Shown here: in pieces, positions 6,072-25,804 of the stretch
How the letters are laid out: the number at the start of each line of letters is the position of its first letter
Numbering within the stretch: the stretch's first letter is position 1
Source of the DNA: a virus
Strand: one strand, 5' to 3'
Length of the DNA: 32,943 bases
Virus record (IMG/VR): IMGVR_UViG_3300046660_000355
Coordinates: 1 to 32,943 of that record
Program-made: the position numbers and the translations under genes
The notes under the pieces: model-generated
What the model was told of the DNA's origin: nothing
Seen by the model: the letters and a program-made list of their open reading frames with translations, nothing else
The model's database searches: none

Positions 6072-6767
6072 GTGGCGAAAAAATTGGAGTTCTGGGGTGT
6101 CTTGGGAACCGTTATCTACCTGTCAATAATCGGGACGACGGTTTCATTTAAGCTTGATGGCTTTCTTAATCTGGAGTTGAACGAATTAGGAGACTTCCTT
6201 GCTGGAGCGTTCGGGCCTGTTGCCTTCCTCTGGCTGGTGCTGGGTTTTTTGCAGCAAGGTCGTGAATTGAAGCTCAGCTCTGATGCATTACAGCTTCAAG
6301 CACAGGAGCTCAAAAATTCAGTAGATCAGCAGCGTGAATTGGTTGAGGTGACCCGGGCGCAGGTTGAAGCAGATTTGGAAAATCTTAAAACTGTGAGGCA
6401 ATTGAGAGCTAAGGAAATCAAGCCTTTTTTTGTCGTAGACGGAGGTGGAGGCTATCACTCTGGTAAGGAGCATGAGTTGGATTTTCAGATCAGGAATCTT
6501 GGACACGCAGTCACTCGATTAGAATTCGATTTTGGATCTCGGCTATCGAATCTAAATCGGTCGCTTCATGTGCTCAACAAGAATGATTCAACTAGCTTCA
6601 AAGTGAAATTCAATGACGATGATGAAGAGATAGACGGCTGGCTAGCAGTTGAGTTTTTGAATGCCGATCAAGAGAAAAGCACCGCAATGTTCCATTACAA
6701 AGTGGAACCGCGTAGCGCAACCTCTGCATACCCACAACTCAAAGTGCAGCTGTCAGCTATAGGTTGA
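6072..6767 (+). CDS. Two-helix membrane protein with coiled coil and C-terminal beta domain (moron)
   Basis: Protein of 231 aa. Two transmembrane helices (VLGTVIYLSIIGTTVSF, about 9-25, and FLAGAFGPVAFLWLVLGFL, about 42-61) are followed by a long coiled coil (about 62-118: LKLSSDALQLQAQELKNSV and onward). After it comes a beta-rich domain (about 118-225, starting KPFFVVDGGGG). This 2TM plus coiled-coil plus soluble domain layout is widespread in prophages and defence islands and is usually of unknown function. It starts with GTG, with AAGGAG 6-7 nt upstream. AT-richer than the surrounding phage genes. The 3' end overlaps the convergent gene at 6753 by 15 bp. Confidence 0.72.
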   Translation: MAKKLEFWGVLGTVIYLSIIGTTVSFKLDGFLNLELNELGDFLAGAFGPVAFLWLVLGFLQQGRELKLSSDALQLQAQELKNSVDQQRELVEVTRAQVEADLENLKTVRQLRAKEIKPFFVVDGGGGYHSGKEHELDFQIRNLGHAVTRLEFDFGSRLSNLNRSLHVLNKNDSTSFKVKFNDDDEEIDGWLAVEFLNADQEKSTAMFHYKVEPRSATSAYPQLKVQLSAIG

Positions 6768-7094
6768 TATGTGAGCTGGAACAATAATATCGTCGCCTGG
6801 TTCACGCTTTAGTTTCGCCAGGCTTTGATTCCGAAATTCACGCGCCACGTTTCTGCTGATAACGATTTCGTGGTGCGTTTTTAATGCTTCCCGCGCACCA
6901 TCGGGGCCAAGTGAATGGACGTAACGCAGGCAGCCCTCAATCACTGAGGCTTGTTCGCTATCCTCGTTCCAGGCCATTAGCTCCTCCAGCTTCTGCCGCG
7001 TTCCGAGCCGGCACCGGTGCCGCAGCTCCTTTTCGTCGAACTCGATCCGCTTCAGTGCGGTCTTCGCTGATCGCTCTTTTCCAGTCTTGGCCAT
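6753..7094 (-). CDS. Hypothetical phage protein (113 aa)
   Basis: Basic helical protein starting MAKTGKERSAKTALKR, with a segment (ELRHRCRLGTRQKLEELMAWN, then EGCLRYVHSLGPDG) that resembles a ribbon-helix-helix-like or CopG-like regulator core. HEIVISRNVAREF follows. Proteins with this arrangement are common in Pseudomonas phages as hypothetical proteins. The start at 7094 has AGAGGT 6 nt upstream; the frame remains open to 7418, but that extension only shadows the next gene. Confidence 0.7.
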   Translation of the reverse strand: MAKTGKERSAKTALKRIEFDEKELRHRCRLGTRQKLEELMAWNEDSEQASVIEGCLRYVHSLGPDGAREALKTHHEIVISRNVAREFRNQSLAKLKREPGDDIIVPAHISTYS

Positions 7095-7168: not shown

Positions 7169-7633
7169 TCACGCTGCGACCTTCACCTGATGCCAGGCGC
7201 CGGCGGCGTAGAACAGCTTCGCGGCTTGGGCTTCGTCCATTGAGATCTCGTCCGGAATGGCGATCCAGCCTGATGCCACCAGATGAGTCGGGTTCGCGCT
7301 GTTGCGCAGCTCCAGGTAGTAATGCTCGATGGCATCGGTCAGGCGCTCGACCTTGTAGATGCCCTCTGGCGATATCTCCACCGACTTGATGTATTCGGCG
7401 CCGCGTTCGTCGCGACACATGGCGCCGATGTAAATCGTCCAGCGGTAGGAGAAGTCGAAGATCGCGTTGGCGATCGCCACACTTCGGATCTGCTTGCAGC
7501 TCTTCCAGTTCGCCATGATCTGGCTGCCGCTGGGGTCAATGTTCACCACTGCGACGTGGTTGGTGCGCAGCAGCGCCCTGCAACTGCGTTCAGCTCGGGC
7601 GAAACCGTTGTTGGGTTTGCGTTTCGACTTCAT
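7169..7633 (-). CDS. Hypothetical phage protein (154 aa)
   Basis: Soluble protein starting MKSKRKPNNGFARAERSCRA. It has a central segment (NWKSCKQIRSVAIANAIFDFSYRWTIYIG) and a C-terminal DEAQAAKLFYAAGAW. It looks like a family often seen beside the recombination genes of Pseudomonas phages, without known function. Its ATG overlaps the stop of the preceding gene in an ATGA arrangement, so translation is probably coupled. Confidence 0.72.
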   Translation of the reverse strand: MKSKRKPNNGFARAERSCRALLRTNHVAVVNIDPSGSQIMANWKSCKQIRSVAIANAIFDFSYRWTIYIGAMCRDERGAEYIKSVEISPEGIYKVERLTDAIEHYYLELRNSANPTHLVASGWIAIPDEISMDEAQAAKLFYAAGAWHQVKVAA

Positions 7634-7872
7634 AGCGAGTCCGCCATTTTTCGCAGAGCTTTGCGGTCAGCCGCCGATATCGGTTTCGGGCGCCGCTTGA
7701 GTACCGTTTCAGGGTCTACCCAATCGCGCCGCTCAGGCTTCGGCTTCATTCGAGCTGGCGGCAGCTCCTTAAAGCTGCTGCCGGGCCGACTCCAGAAGTC
7801 AGCTGTCGCCGCCGCGATCCGGTCAGACTCACCTTGTTTCGTTCGAACTGCGTTGAGATTCAGGCTGATCAT
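7630..7872 (-). CDS. Small hypothetical protein next to exonuclease (80 aa)
   Basis: Basic protein rich in Pro, Lys and Arg in its centre (LPPARMKPKPERRDW, then LKRRPKPISAADRKAL). The ATG at 7872 has AGGAG 7 nt upstream, whereas a TTG at 7878 would sit only 1 nt from it. It starts 2 bp after the exonuclease stop and overlaps the next gene by 4 bp, so it is in the recombination transcript. Function unknown. Confidence 0.68.
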   Translation of the reverse strand: MISLNLNAVRTKQGESDRIAAATADFWSRPGSSFKELPPARMKPKPERRDWVDPETVLKRRPKPISAADRKALRKMADSL

Positions 7873-7874
7873 GC

Positions 7875-8537
7875 TCAAGCTCCTAATCTATGGGCTTGTG
7901 CCCGTGCTTTGTCCGCGACCTCATCCACCATGCGATTCAGCTCCAGGTTGAATTGGACGAGCTCTCTGTGCAGGTTGGCGATGTAGTCTTCGTCGCGGTA
8001 AATCGTTTCGATATAGAGCTGACACTCCTCGTCTTGGCGGGAATCGAAGGACAGAAAGTCCCACCATTGCCTGCCCGTCACGAACATGCAGCCCTGAATC
8101 TGCGGCATATGTTCCTCGGGCATGCCCTCCAGCCAAGTCCTGACGTGGATCGCCTCGTTGAAAGGACACTTTGACTCGGTGCCACCGTCATCGTTGATCA
8201 GGCCGTCTGGCGAGCAGCCGAGCCAGTCATACTTCGGGTGAACGATGAATTCCGACGGCACGACAATGTTGCCGGTCAGCATCTCGTAGGCGTCCTGAGC
8301 CTTTTGCTCTTCTGTGTGACCCCACTTCATGGAAGCGCTGCTGACGTTGTGCTTGGACTTCTTTGCCAGTCGTTCGAAGCACAGCTCACGCATGTAGGAG
8401 GTCCGCGCGCCCATCGGCTCGCGCTTCCCATGCTTGTCAGGTTTTCCCCAAGCCATTACGTCTTTGAAGCGGCTGGCCGTCACTCGACCGGATCGGTCTG
8501 AATGCCACTTTTCAGTACCTTGCAGTTCCGCTCTCAC
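7875..8537 (-). CDS. YqaJ-type phage exonuclease
   Basis: Protein of 220 aa of the YqaJ / lambda exonuclease nuclease family. Visible motifs are GRVTASRF near residue 18, MKWGHTEE near 70, the catalytic-type GCSPDGL near 108, ESKCP near 121, and HMPQIQGCMFVTGRQWWDF near 143-161. These enzymes degrade one strand of duplex DNA 5' to 3' and hand ssDNA to an annealing protein. The GTG start overlaps the TAG stop of recT by one base (TAGTG), so the two are translationally coupled and form the phage recombination pair. Confidence 0.9.
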   Translation of the reverse strand: MRAELQGTEKWHSDRSGRVTASRFKDVMAWGKPDKHGKREPMGARTSYMRELCFERLAKKSKHNVSSASMKWGHTEEQKAQDAYEMLTGNIVVPSEFIVHPKYDWLGCSPDGLINDDGGTESKCPFNEAIHVRTWLEGMPEEHMPQIQGCMFVTGRQWWDFLSFDSRQDEECQLYIETIYRDEDYIANLHRELVQFNLELNRMVDEVADKARAQAHRLGA

Positions 8538-18492: not shown

Positions 18493-19296
18493 ATGCACGC
18501 ACAGCCACAACAGGACAATACCGGACGTGTCGCGACACGTTTTTCGAATTCTGAAAACGTGTCGCGTACCACGATGTCCTCCCGCGAGATCGCTAACGTC
18601 GCCGGCAAGCGGCACGCCAACGTGAAGCGCGACATCGCTGCGATGCTGAAAGAACTAAAATTAGATGTGCTCAGTTTTGAGCACATCTATCTGGACGGCC
18701 AAAATCGGGAACAGGTTGAGTACATGCTCGACCGAGAGCATACCGACTGCCTGCTCACCGGTTACAGCGCTCCTATGCGGATGAAAGTGATCCGCCGTTG
18801 GCGCGAACTTGAACAGCAGCAGGGCGCTCGCGAGCAGGTTCTGCTCAGCGGCACCAAGGTGGTGGGCGAGATCGCCATCATGGAGTGCTTCACGCGCCTG
18901 CTGAAGCCCGCGCCGTCTTGCCAGATGGCCATGCTCACGAAGATCGCCCAGAACAACGGTCTTGATCCGAAGTTTCTCCCAGGCTACGCCGTCGACGCCG
19001 CGCCAGATGCTACCGGCGGATCCTCGATGCCCACCAAGTCAGCCACGGCCTTGCTGAAAGACAACAGCATTCGCGTGTCTCCCGCTGCGTTCAACCGAGC
19101 ACTGGAAACCAAGGGCTTTCTGAAGCAGCTCCAGCGTAAGAACTCCAAGCAGGAAATGGTTCCGTTCTGGTCGGTGACCGAGAAGGGCATGACCTACGGC
19201 AAGAACCTGACCAACCCCCAATCCCCACGCGAGACGCAGCCTCACTGGTACGTCGATCGCTTCCTCGAACTGGCCAAACTGGTCGGGAAGGCCTGA
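18493..19296 (+). CDS. rha: Rha family phage regulatory protein
   Basis: Protein of 267 aa. The Rha domain spans about 29-105: MSSREIANVAGKRHANVKRDIAAML, HIYLDGQNREQVEYMLDREHTDCLLTGYSAPMRMKVIRRW. The C-terminal part (about 185-250) looks like a KilA-C/phage antirepressor-like winged domain (NRALETKGFLKQLQRKN, PFWSVTEKGMTYGKNL). Rha proteins regulate lytic growth in some phages (in P22-like phages, interfering when host IHF is lacking). The ATG at 18493 has GGAG 6 nt upstream; a TTG at 18481 overlaps that site. Codons 12-27 contain the repeated palindrome element described separately. Confidence 0.85.
   Translation: MHAQPQQDNTGRVATRFSNSENVSRTTMSSREIANVAGKRHANVKRDIAAMLKELKLDVLSFEHIYLDGQNREQVEYMLDREHTDCLLTGYSAPMRMKVIRRWRELEQQQGAREQVLLSGTKVVGEIAIMECFTRLLKPAPSCQMAMLTKIAQNNGLDPKFLPGYAVDAAPDATGGSSMPTKSATALLKDNSIRVSPAAFNRALETKGFLKQLQRKNSKQEMVPFWSVTEKGMTYGKNLTNPQSPRETQPHWYVDRFLELAKLVGKA
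18525..18571. repeat. TGTCGCGACA element, copy 1 (inside rha)
   Basis: A perfect 16-bp palindrome ACGTGTCGCGACACGT (18525-18540), then CACGTTTT/AAAACGTG arms and a second GTGTCGCG at 18559-18566. The order and the 30-bp spacing between the two GTCGCG cores are repeated at 24232-24278 in front of the sponge gene. Confidence 0.7.
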
Positions 19297-21508: not shown

Positions 21509-21903
21509 CCGAGTTCGCAATCCGCAGCCAGAGCGACATCAGCCGTCTGGTGGGCGTCCTGCACGCAACCGACTTCACCAAGCCCAAGATCGTGGTCATC
21601 AAGGACGAGAAGCGCCCGGACGTCTGCAACCGCAAGATGTGGGCAATGCTCAAGGACGTATCCGAGCAAGTGATCTGGCACGGCAAGAAACTGACCAGCG
21701 AAGACTGGAAGTGCCTTTTCAGTGCCTCGCTGGAGAAGCAGCGTGCGGAGCCTGGCCTCGATGGCGGCTTCGTAGTGATGGCCGTATCGACCCGCAAGCA
21801 GTCGCAGAAGTGGTTCAGCGATCTGTTCGAACTCATGCATGCCTTCGGCGCCGAGCATGACGTGCGCTGGACCGAGCAAGACAAGTGGGGAGGGCGCTAC
21901 TGA
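21505..21903 (+). CDS. ninB: NinB-family recombination protein
   Basis: Protein of 132 aa matching NinB (lambda Orf): N-terminal IRSQSDISRLVGVLHA, central RPDVCNRKMWAMLKDVSEQVIWHGKKLTSEDWKCLFSAS, and C-terminal MAVSTRKQSQKWFSDLFELMHAFGAEHDV with WTEQ. Orf/NinB helps load recombination proteins on ssDNA and can replace RecFOR. The start overlaps the preceding stop (ATGA), and the end overlaps the ninG start (TGATG). Confidence 0.9.
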   Translation: MTEFAIRSQSDISRLVGVLHATDFTKPKIVVIKDEKRPDVCNRKMWAMLKDVSEQVIWHGKKLTSEDWKCLFSASLEKQRAEPGLDGGFVVMAVSTRKQSQKWFSDLFELMHAFGAEHDVRWTEQDKWGGRY

Positions 21904-22511
21904 TGCGCGTAGCCATCAAGGAATCGAAGGCGCCCAAGCCGAAGAGGTGCAAGAACCCAGCTTGCGGGGACTCATTCGTCCCGCAGCGCCTCGGGCAGGC
22001 GGTGTGCGGATACAAGTGCGGACTGGCCATCAAGGACGTCAATCAGGCGAAAGCCGGCAAGGCGTTAGCCCAGGTTGGGCGCCGCGAGATTCGGGTGCGC
22101 AAGGAGAAGCTGAAGTCGCGCGGCGACCACATGCGCGAGGCTCAGCAAGCGTTTAACGCATACATCCGTGCGCGTGACCAGGTCGCCGGCCACCTATGCA
22201 TCTCCAGCGGCAAGCCGTTGGACTGGAGCGGTAACGCTGTAGACGCAGGGCATTACCGAAGCGTCGGTTCCGCCCCGCACTTGCGATTCGATGAGCGCAA
22301 TTGCCATGCACAGAGCAAGCAGGACAACCGATTCCTATCGGGTAACGCCGTGGATTATCGGATAGGCCTGATCGCGCGCATCGGACAAGAAGCGGTCGAC
22401 GCATTGGAATCTGACCAGAGCGTGCGCAAGTACACCACCGACGATCTGAAGGCCATTAAGGCCGAATACCGGGCCAAGACCCGAGAACTGAAAAAGGGGC
22501 AGGCAGCATGA
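21903..22511 (+). CDS. ninG: NinG-family recombination nuclease (Rap)
   Basis: Protein of 202 aa. N-terminal zinc finger with CKNPACGDSF and CGYKCG (about 17-41), a basic helical middle (REIRVRKEKLKSRGDHMREAQ), and the NinG core ARDQVAGHLCISSGKPLDWSGNAVDAGHYRSVGSAP, then HAQSKQDNRFLSGNAVDYR. Lambda Rap/NinG is a structure-specific nuclease that resolves branched DNA. It follows ninB with a 1-base TGATG overlap. Confidence 0.9.
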   Translation: MRVAIKESKAPKPKRCKNPACGDSFVPQRLGQAVCGYKCGLAIKDVNQAKAGKALAQVGRREIRVRKEKLKSRGDHMREAQQAFNAYIRARDQVAGHLCISSGKPLDWSGNAVDAGHYRSVGSAPHLRFDERNCHAQSKQDNRFLSGNAVDYRIGLIARIGQEAVDALESDQSVRKYTTDDLKAIKAEYRAKTRELKKGQAA

Positions 22512-23567: not shown

Positions 23568-23900
23568 CGCCTGAAATTCACGCTGCCAAGCCAATTTTCG
23601 GGAATACCTGGACGTCGATAGCCGGATAGTGCGACGTACGGAATCAACACCGGCAGCCCGCGCGCCCTGACCTCAAACTTGCTTTCGGGGTGGCGCGAGA
23701 CTGGATCAGCGAGATCGATGCAAAGGGGCGTCGACGTTGAGAAGGCCTTAGGCGGACAGCACGGAAAGACGTGCGCACCTATTCAGGGCCTCTGCATTCG
23801 CGGAGGCTTTTTCGTTTTCGGCTCCCCACACCCATTGCTCCGAGCTGGGAGTGCAGCGGACGCCGGATTTATCAATCTCCCCAAGGGGGAGGCAACCCGG
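23568..23900 (+). promoter_or_regulatory. Late leader region with tR'-like terminator
   Basis: About 330 bp without a gene. It contains a second strong rho-independent terminator: GCCTCTGC (23788-23795), loop ATTC, GCGGAGGC (23800-23807) and TTTTT. A terminator in the leader between a Q-position gene and the holin is the layout of lambda PR'-tR', where Q lets polymerase pass. I do not see a clear -35/-10 pair for the late promoter. An open frame from 23679 is only the upstream extension of the holin frame and has no ribosome site. Confidence 0.55.
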
Positions 23901-24233
23901 ATGCCAAACATGCCTGACAAGCCAGACACATGGGCGATAGCGCTTGCGTGGTTGAGCCAGCATTCGCCAATCCTCTATGCGGCTGCGCTGTCCTGCGCCA
24001 TGGCCGTGCTACGGATCACTTACGGTGGCGGTACTCGTCGCCAGATGCTGGTGGAGGGCGCCATTTGCGGCGGCCTCACACTAACCATTATCAGCGGACT
24101 GGACTTCTTCGGCCTGCCCCAGAGTATGGCCACCTTCGCCGGCGGCTGGGTTGGCTTCCTTGGCGTGGAGAAGATCCGCAACATTGCGGATCGGGTGACT
24201 GATTTCAAGTTGCCGAGCCGCAAGGCAGAGTAA
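23901..24233 (+). CDS. Phage holin (lambda-family, Pseudomonas type)
   Basis: Protein of 110 aa: MPNMPDKPDTWAIALAWLSQH, then hydrophobic helices SPILYAAALSCAMAVLRITYGG, MLVEGAICGGLTLTIISGLDF and SMATFAGGWVGFLGVEKI. The Y-GG-(T/S)RRQ motif and FFG-PQS-A-F-GGWVGFLGVEKIR end are characteristic of the lambda-family holins of Pseudomonas phages. It forms membrane holes at the end of the lytic cycle. A GGGAGG ribosome site lies about 9 nt upstream. No endolysin gene follows in the window. Confidence 0.88.
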   Translation: MPNMPDKPDTWAIALAWLSQHSPILYAAALSCAMAVLRITYGGGTRRQMLVEGAICGGLTLTIISGLDFFGLPQSMATFAGGWVGFLGVEKIRNIADRVTDFKLPSRKAE

Positions 24234-24278
24234 GTCGCGACACGTTTCGCGAATCAGCAAATTGTGTCGCGACACGCG
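24232..24278. repeat. TGTCGCGACA element, copy 2 (sponge gene leader)
   Basis: GTCGCGACACGTTT at 24234, then CGAAT, AAA and a perfect palindrome GTGTCGCGACAC at 24264-24275. The two GTCGCG cores are exactly as far apart as in the rha copy (18525-18571) and the intervening bases are mostly conserved. Here the element is non-coding, between holin and the gene at 24293. Confidence 0.7.
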
Positions 24279-24292
24279 ACGAGGAGAGCAGC

Positions 24293-24523
24293 ATGGATAA
24301 CCAGCACAAGAAGATCACCGGCTACCGCGACCTGACCCAGTCCGAAATCGACGGCATGAACTCGATCAAGGCTCTTGAAGCTGACGCCGGCGAACTGTTC
24401 AAGCAGATCGGCCAGATTGAAGGCGTTGATCCGCGACTGCTGACGTTGGCCAAGACCAACTTGCAGCAGGGCTTCATGTGGTTCGTTCGCTCGATCGCAA
24501 AACCCGCTGACCCTTTCAGCTGA
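24293..24523 (+). CDS. acb2: Acb2/Tad1-type cyclic-nucleotide sponge (anti-CBASS)
   Basis: Protein of 76 aa: KITGYRDLTQSEIDGMNSIKALEADAGELFKQI, then DPRLLTLAKTNLQQGFMWFVRSIAKP-DPF. This is the helical-hairpin Acb2 pattern (HKKI-GYRDL--EEID-MN-IK at the start; A-T-LQQGFM-LVR-IA-P at the end). Acb2 proteins assemble into hexamers that bind cyclic di- and trinucleotides and so block CBASS defence; some bind Thoeris signals. It is slightly shorter than the usual Acb2 because the hairpin loop is short. A GAGGAG ribosome site lies 8 nt upstream. It is coupled to the next gene by a TGATG overlap. Confidence 0.82.
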   Translation: MDNQHKKITGYRDLTQSEIDGMNSIKALEADAGELFKQIGQIEGVDPRLLTLAKTNLQQGFMWFVRSIAKPADPFS

Positions 24524-25280: not shown

Positions 25281-25312
25281 TTTCACTGTTTCCGTCCATT
25301 GGGTTGAAGTCA

Positions 25313-25342
25313 CCATTACCGGCAGTCAGCCACTATTTCAAG
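25313..25342 (+). repeat. 30-bp direct repeat, copy 1
   Basis: CCATTACCGGCA and, after a 4-bp variable core, GCCACTATTTCAAG. The copy at 26071-26100 matches 25 of 30 bases. Copy 1 lies just before the proteasome-like gene. The repeats bracket the segment 25343-26070. Confidence 0.75.
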
Positions 25343-25360
25343 TGTCAAGGGAGGAAGAGC

Positions 25361-25804
25361 GTGACGACCATTGCCTACAAAGACGGTGTGATCGCATACG
25401 ACTCGCGCGTTACACGCGGTTCTCTCATCGACCACGACGACTACGAGAAGCTCATCCATAGGAACGGGCATCAGTTCCTGTTCACGGGTTGCGGTGCGGA
25501 CTTTGCCGCTCTGATGGATGAGTTCTTCGGCGCAAAAGTCAGCGATAAGCCGCTCGACGCGAACGGGCTGGTCGTCACCAATGGCAGGCTTTGCCAGATT
25601 GGTCGTGATGCTGAGAGCGGGTTCTGGCTGGACGAGGTGTGGATGGAGCGTCCGTTTGCCATCGGTAGCGGGCGCGACTTCGCACTCGCTGCAATGGATA
25701 TGGGCGCAACAGCCAAGGAAGCTGTCGAGCAAGCGGCCAAGCGTGATTGTTACACCGGCGGTACGATCCGCACGCTGATCATTGATCCAGGCAAGGCTGG
25801 GTAG
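25361..25804 (+). CDS. Proteasome beta / HslV-like Ntn-hydrolase
   Basis: Protein of 147 aa. After the initiator it reads TTIAYKDGVIAYDSRVTRG, matching the N-terminus of proteasome beta/HslV-type subunits, with a Thr at position 2 that would become the N-terminal nucleophile and the YDSR element equivalent to Asp17/Arg19. Later, PFAIGSGRDFALAAMDMGATAKEAVEQAAKRD carries the GSG signature, and the end has TGGTIRTLII. Such genes occur in many phages as single-subunit homologues without a known regulator ATPase. A GTG start with GGAGG 6 nt upstream. Role unknown: it could cleave a peptide or be structural. Confidence 0.78.
   Translation: MTTIAYKDGVIAYDSRVTRGSLIDHDDYEKLIHRNGHQFLFTGCGADFAALMDEFFGAKVSDKPLDANGLVVTNGRLCQIGRDAESGFWLDEVWMERPFAIGSGRDFALAAMDMGATAKEAVEQAAKRDCYTGGTIRTLIIDPGKAG

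Follow-up and report, generated by a model that had tools for sequence, protein, structure and literature searches.

A short-form Acb2 gene beside a conserved palindrome at a probable joint between modules of Pseudomonas temperate phages

The T4 protein Vs.4 is a hexamer that binds cGAMP via Y8, H11, K23, R79 and F82 (PMC10097602), and Tad1 has an N-terminal beta-sheet besides its hairpin (PMC12043709). In lambdoid phages, the borders of exchanged patches are said to lack particular signals, barring a few short conserved sequences; short shared sequences of this kind have been proposed to mediate the exchange, and diverged DNA was recombined well by the Red system (PMC2327257). Here we describe a gene of the Acb2 family and the palindrome directly ahead of it in a viral DNA stretch of 32,943 nucleotides (IMG/VR record IMGVR_UViG_3300046660_000355), hereafter the window, and compare both with these systems.

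The gene, at 24293-24523 (+), encodes a product of 76 residues that a preliminary description of the window had read as an Acb2/Tad1-type sponge encoded in the lysis region. The open reading frame exists with the quoted motifs inside it, and its placement in the lysis region is supported. The product matched the PF24729 (Acb2_Tad1_hairpin) profile with E=3.2e-18 and 66.1 bits (cut-off 27), and phmmer against the PDB retrieved Acb2 (8h2j, E=5e-13; 8ixz, E=3e-12) and T4 Vs.4 (7uq2, E=5e-4). The same description had proposed structure prediction of a hexamer as a check; a single-chain AlphaFold2 model gave the helical hairpin, with two anti-parallel helices (residues 16-40 and 47-69; pLDDT 85). 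When this model was compared with the PDB using Foldseek, the top nine matches were Acb2 or Vs.4 chains only, 8h2j_A matching with probability 1.00 and TM 0.70 on the query. Profile, phmmer and Foldseek searches hence agree on the Acb2 half of the earlier assignment. The Tad1 half does not stand: only the Pfam hairpin name PF24729 is common to Tad1 and the window protein, whose model is all-helical and has no strands, so that the beta domain that defines Tad1 (PMC12043709) is absent.

In a residue mapping of our own, read from the phmmer alignments, Y8, K23 and R79 of Vs.4 correspond to Y11, K26 and R66 of the window protein, which therefore retains these cGAMP-contact residues, and H11 and F82 correspond to L14 and A69. 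The latter two differences are not diagnostic, because 8h2j likewise has Ala where Vs.4 has F82. Y11, R66 and A69 never vary among 20 aligned relatives, and K26 hardly does. Alike in sequence family, two-helix hairpin and Tyr/Lys/Arg positions to 8h2j, 8ixz and 7uq2, the window protein is a genuine and ordinary Acb2-family member, merely one more gene in a known family. Judged from its sequence, it would act as a sponge: the product would assemble into an Acb2-type hexamer and bind CBASS cyclic nucleotides, and abortive infection would thereby be blocked.

Compared with the 93-residue Acb2 of 8h2j, the window protein is shorter by about 17 residues, which the alignment places at the hairpin tip, just as the preliminary description had noted in remarking on the lack of a longer loop. 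Sequences of a Rhodospirillaceae bacterium, Alteromonas, an epsilonproteobacterium, Pseudovibrio and Sphingomonas have the short loop too, and those of Litchfieldella, Endozoicomonas and Parashewanella a longer one; the alignment is dominated by close relatives and hence gives no frequencies for the two forms. The suggestion that loss of the loop alters the ligand range finds no support, since the short form is common, and nothing special, and none of the cGAMP-contact positions mapped from Vs.4 falls within the loop that is lost. The gene itself is common too, being found in 229 phage records and at least 327 IMG/VR stretches. Two probable misannotations came to light among these relatives: an antisense 'Rz-like spanin' overlying acb2 in PP003914.1 (L003; 2480-3175, -), and the label 'NAD/FAD-utilizing enzyme' given to Acb2 homologues in Pseudomonas phages MR5, MR6, MR7 and phiB1_1.

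Upstream of acb2 lies a holin gene (Phage_holin_3_1; 23904-24233, +; PF05106, E=4.7e-31), itself preceded at 23580-23658 (+) by a Proteo-phage-1 RNA (RF03044; 60.7 bits, gathering threshold 42) that is also present in loci L135, L143, L152 and L176. No sigma-70-like promoter was found near acb2, which has its own ribosome-binding site directly 3' of the palindrome; acb2 is most likely a late accessory gene, transcribed by read-through from the lysis genes. The next gene, P0002 (24523-24711, +; phrog_15190, function unknown), begins with the final base of the stop codon of acb2 (TGATG). This overlap recurs in 70 of the 78 related loci with both genes, which makes translational coupling likely. 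P0002 is no obligate partner, however, since acb2 is missing from 62 of 140 P0002 loci. P0002 has a weak helix-turn-helix (HTH)-like match (phrog_686, E=0.003). A proteasome/HslV-like peptidase gene (25304-25804, +; PF00227, E=1e-6; phrog_1040, E=3e-38) lies beside these accessory genes, and in phages Cruim01 and Medea1 a 'proteasome subunit beta' comes next after P0002.

The palindrome is a hairpin of 36-37 bp with the form CGCGMCAC-N20-GTGKCGCG. At the lysis site it occupies 24236-24271 (also delimited as 24234-24273; covariance model E=1e-12), separated by 2 nt from the stop codon of the holin gene and by 21 nt from the acb2 start. A second copy, at 18531-18566 (E=3.5e-9), lies in frame in the N-terminal leader of a Rha-like antirepressor gene (18493-19296, +; PF09669, E=6.8e-15), whose start at 18493 was picked by eye from its ribosome-binding site. 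The third, degenerate, is at 6841-6877 (E=6e-4), in the 3' coding part of a gene of unknown function (6753-7094, -; phrog_5439, E=8e-24). The window thus has two copies of the extended exact palindrome, at 18531 and at 24236, against 0 expected from 100 shuffles; its 10-base core TGTCGCGACA alone is not over-represented there. In the viral loci examined, the regions upstream of acb2 contain one hairpin in three variants. The repeated palindrome reported ahead of acb2 is accordingly real, with two exact copies and one degenerate copy, but its distribution does not depend on acb2 and is much wider. We found no description of it in the literature searched, a search that mostly did not reach subscription papers.

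Among 42 related phage and prophage records, selected mostly via acb2 or P0002, 40 have the palindrome. A simple scan, which missed some copies that the covariance model detected, gave two to four copies per genome in the 26 sequences, the window among them, that were inspected over a long stretch and had any copy. Nearly all copies are at three homologous places: after the lysis gene, in the antirepressor (Rha) leader and in the phrog_5439 gene, where the copy is less well preserved and often degenerate. A pattern scan of IMG/VR made independently of acb2 returned 214 matches, mainly in the same contexts; the 60 that lack the inner A/T pairs are probably due to chance. The palindrome was present in genomes of 27 of 59 Pseudomonas species, with 0 to 6 matches per host genome, and in 0 of 74 genomes of other Gammaproteobacteria. 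Where acb2 is absent, it also occurs behind other lysis genes and ahead of other small genes. At L152:2954-2989 and L191:2954-2989, the palindrome loop has exactly the opposite orientation to that at almost every other lysis site, as though the element had been turned round.

What adjoins the palindrome varies at all three places. At the lysis site, 148 elements are preceded by about 19 families, among them holins and Rz-like spanins, and followed by 12, in many combinations. Because short peptides were grouped by BLAST, these family counts are approximate, and a small number of groups may represent spurious reading frames. The spacing from the upstream stop codon to the palindrome is exactly 2 nt in 112 of the 132 cases. 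The commonest downstream families, acb2 (89) and P0002 (27), are over-represented because the loci were fetched via these two genes. Several small families without known function occupy the acb2 position in other loci (for example L199, L194, L165 and L147); these are candidate accessory genes and perhaps serve in anti-defence. At the antirepressor site, a single leader (NTP..VATRFSNSENVSR or APRFSQSENVAR) runs through the palindrome directly into any of at least five unrelated domains, of which only Rha is named here, names for the others being by-eye calls; several of these domains have no start codon after the palindrome, which must therefore form part of the translated frame. Either arm type of the palindrome (see below) is found there with similar downstream families. 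Across site 3, in the phrog_5439 gene, N-terminal types and tail types likewise occur in varied combinations, and the reading frame through the palindrome is a different one (PRHEIVISENVAR), so that what the sites have in common is DNA and not a peptide.

We consider it probable that acb2 is an accessory anti-defence gene of Pseudomonas temperate phages located at a conserved palindromic recombination joint. The 36-bp palindrome, with about three copies per phage genome, would join upstream or N-terminal modules to differing downstream or C-terminal ones. To judge from the present-day combinations, exchange would proceed by short-homology recombination inside the palindrome, carried out by the phages' own recombination genes, and cruciform formation might aid it; something further, perhaps a bound protein, would hold the arm sequence fixed. 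That the product of the NinG/Rap-type resolvase gene recognised by profile match at 21885-22511 acts on the palindrome is a conjecture.

Integron attC sites are imperfect hairpins with a variable loop right after the stop codon of a gene. The palindrome resembles them in being a hairpin with a variable loop just 3' of a stop codon, but no attC core sequences were seen in it, and it is also sited inside coding sequence. There are no cassette arrays of the integron kind, each site having one palindrome and each genome about three distant sites, and no element stands between acb2 and P0002, the spacing of which was scored as 3 nt in 70 of 78 loci. The boundary sequences of lambdoid phages are likewise short common sequences that flank exchangeable modules and could be used for homologous recombination (PMC2327257). 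The element described here differs from them in that one palindrome, strongly conserved and with two arm types, recurs at three loci of a genome and at two of these is an in-frame part of coding sequence.

In 45 diverse copies the arms are nearly invariant, a single outer pair varying between A-T and C-G, and the arm type agrees between the lysis and antirepressor sites in 32 of 33 genomes despite their differing loops, a count in which the genomes are not independent. This near-invariance and the concordance of two sites are more than a neutral homology patch needs, and count against a plain joint. The concordance suggests one recogniser acting on both sites, and the palindrome may, from these sequence patterns, also bind a protein. 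An operator is the strongest rival, to which we give somewhat less than an even chance: a dimeric or tetrameric protein of phage or host would bind the arms at two or three sites and control the antirepressor and the late accessory genes, with module exchange a side effect of the common homology. Such a role is compatible with a joint. Besides the behaviour of the arms, the two or three fixed sites per genome favour it, as does the weak or absent sorting by arm type of the genes between the lysis and antirepressor sites. The concordance nevertheless has to be set against some population structure by arm type (P0002, 20/21; rep1, NinB and TerL, p ~0.03-0.04), and site 3 is often of the other arm type. 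Moreover, two of the sites lie within coding sequence. Stoperators, such as those of phage L5, are dispersed repressor sites. The palindrome is like them in that a few recognisable sites are spread through a phage genome at a distance from promoters, but L5 stoperators are short, asymmetric and more numerous, and we know of no repressor for this palindrome.

No recogniser was identified among the candidates considered, namely CI/Cro, the phrog_5439 protein, P0002 and a small 'MISNHL' protein. The likely CI/Cro sites (TAACCGNNGGTTAA, by eye) look different from the palindrome, which is therefore not favoured as a CI operator. The phrog_5439 gene is absent from several element-bearing phages, and the strand residues of its protein do not separate cleanly by arm type. 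By eye only, this protein has a ribbon-helix-helix-like pattern; its AlphaFold2 model is of modest confidence, with one insignificant Foldseek match, and no PDB profile match was obtained. P0002 was rejected because some phages of the C-G type carry an A-T-like P0002. The small 'MISNHL...DPETVLKRR' family, encoded at 7630-7878 (-), has a C-terminus that differs consistently between A-T and C-G phages, and in G009 and G021 a longer, HTH-like sequence stands in its place. It thus sorts by type, but two A-T phages have a quite different C-terminus and several lack the gene.

A dedicated joint system would go further than the joint we favour. One palindrome family at three fixed loci would be recognised by a trans-acting protein with two incompatible specificities (A-T and C-G), which would also direct the in-frame exchange of antirepressor domains and the exchange of accessory anti-defence genes such as acb2. 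We regard this as unlikely, at perhaps a fifth of our belief.

That the palindrome acts at the RNA level, its transcribed hairpin being a processing site, a stabiliser or the target of an RNA-binding protein for downstream genes, we think improbable. The fold is stable (z-scores -3.3 and -3.9), stem positions covary and the palindrome is always within transcribed regions. The paired changes are no proof of RNA, since the structure was derived from those same sequences and a protein-bound DNA dyad would covary likewise; unlike in most structured RNAs, few stem pairs vary, the outer one in just two states. Either strand folds as well as the other, the orientation with respect to the gene varies between sites and is flipped in L152 and L191, and Rfam gave no gathering-level match at the palindrome, the best permissive match having E=0.92.

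We give still less credence to a short mobile or selfish repeat that has inserted at a handful of sites, similar to REP sequences or to the in-frame palindromic elements of Rickettsia. One hairpin at several loci, in frame within coding sequence at two, would suit such a repeat, but a phage has just two to four copies, nearly all at homologous sites, the matches in host genomes are as few as stated above, and no empty sites were observed beside intact flanks. Least credible of all, and largely refuted, is a regulatory site specific to acb2, bound for example by P0002 in the manner of anti-CRISPR-associated (Aca) repressors, which the position directly ahead of acb2 in the window and the weak HTH-like match of P0002 might suggest: the palindrome precedes many other genes, also where acb2 is lacking, it recurs at the antirepressor and phrog_5439 genes, and P0002 types fit arm types only imperfectly.

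The palindrome, real and widespread, is a more interesting result than the Acb2 protein beside which it was noticed. One recognisable hairpin marks module borders at three loci in the phages of about half of the Pseudomonas species sampled, and so offers a concrete means of testing how anti-defence genes and antirepressor domains pass between phages. Its copy at the lysis site is, in addition, a marker for finding new accessory genes downstream of the lysis gene.
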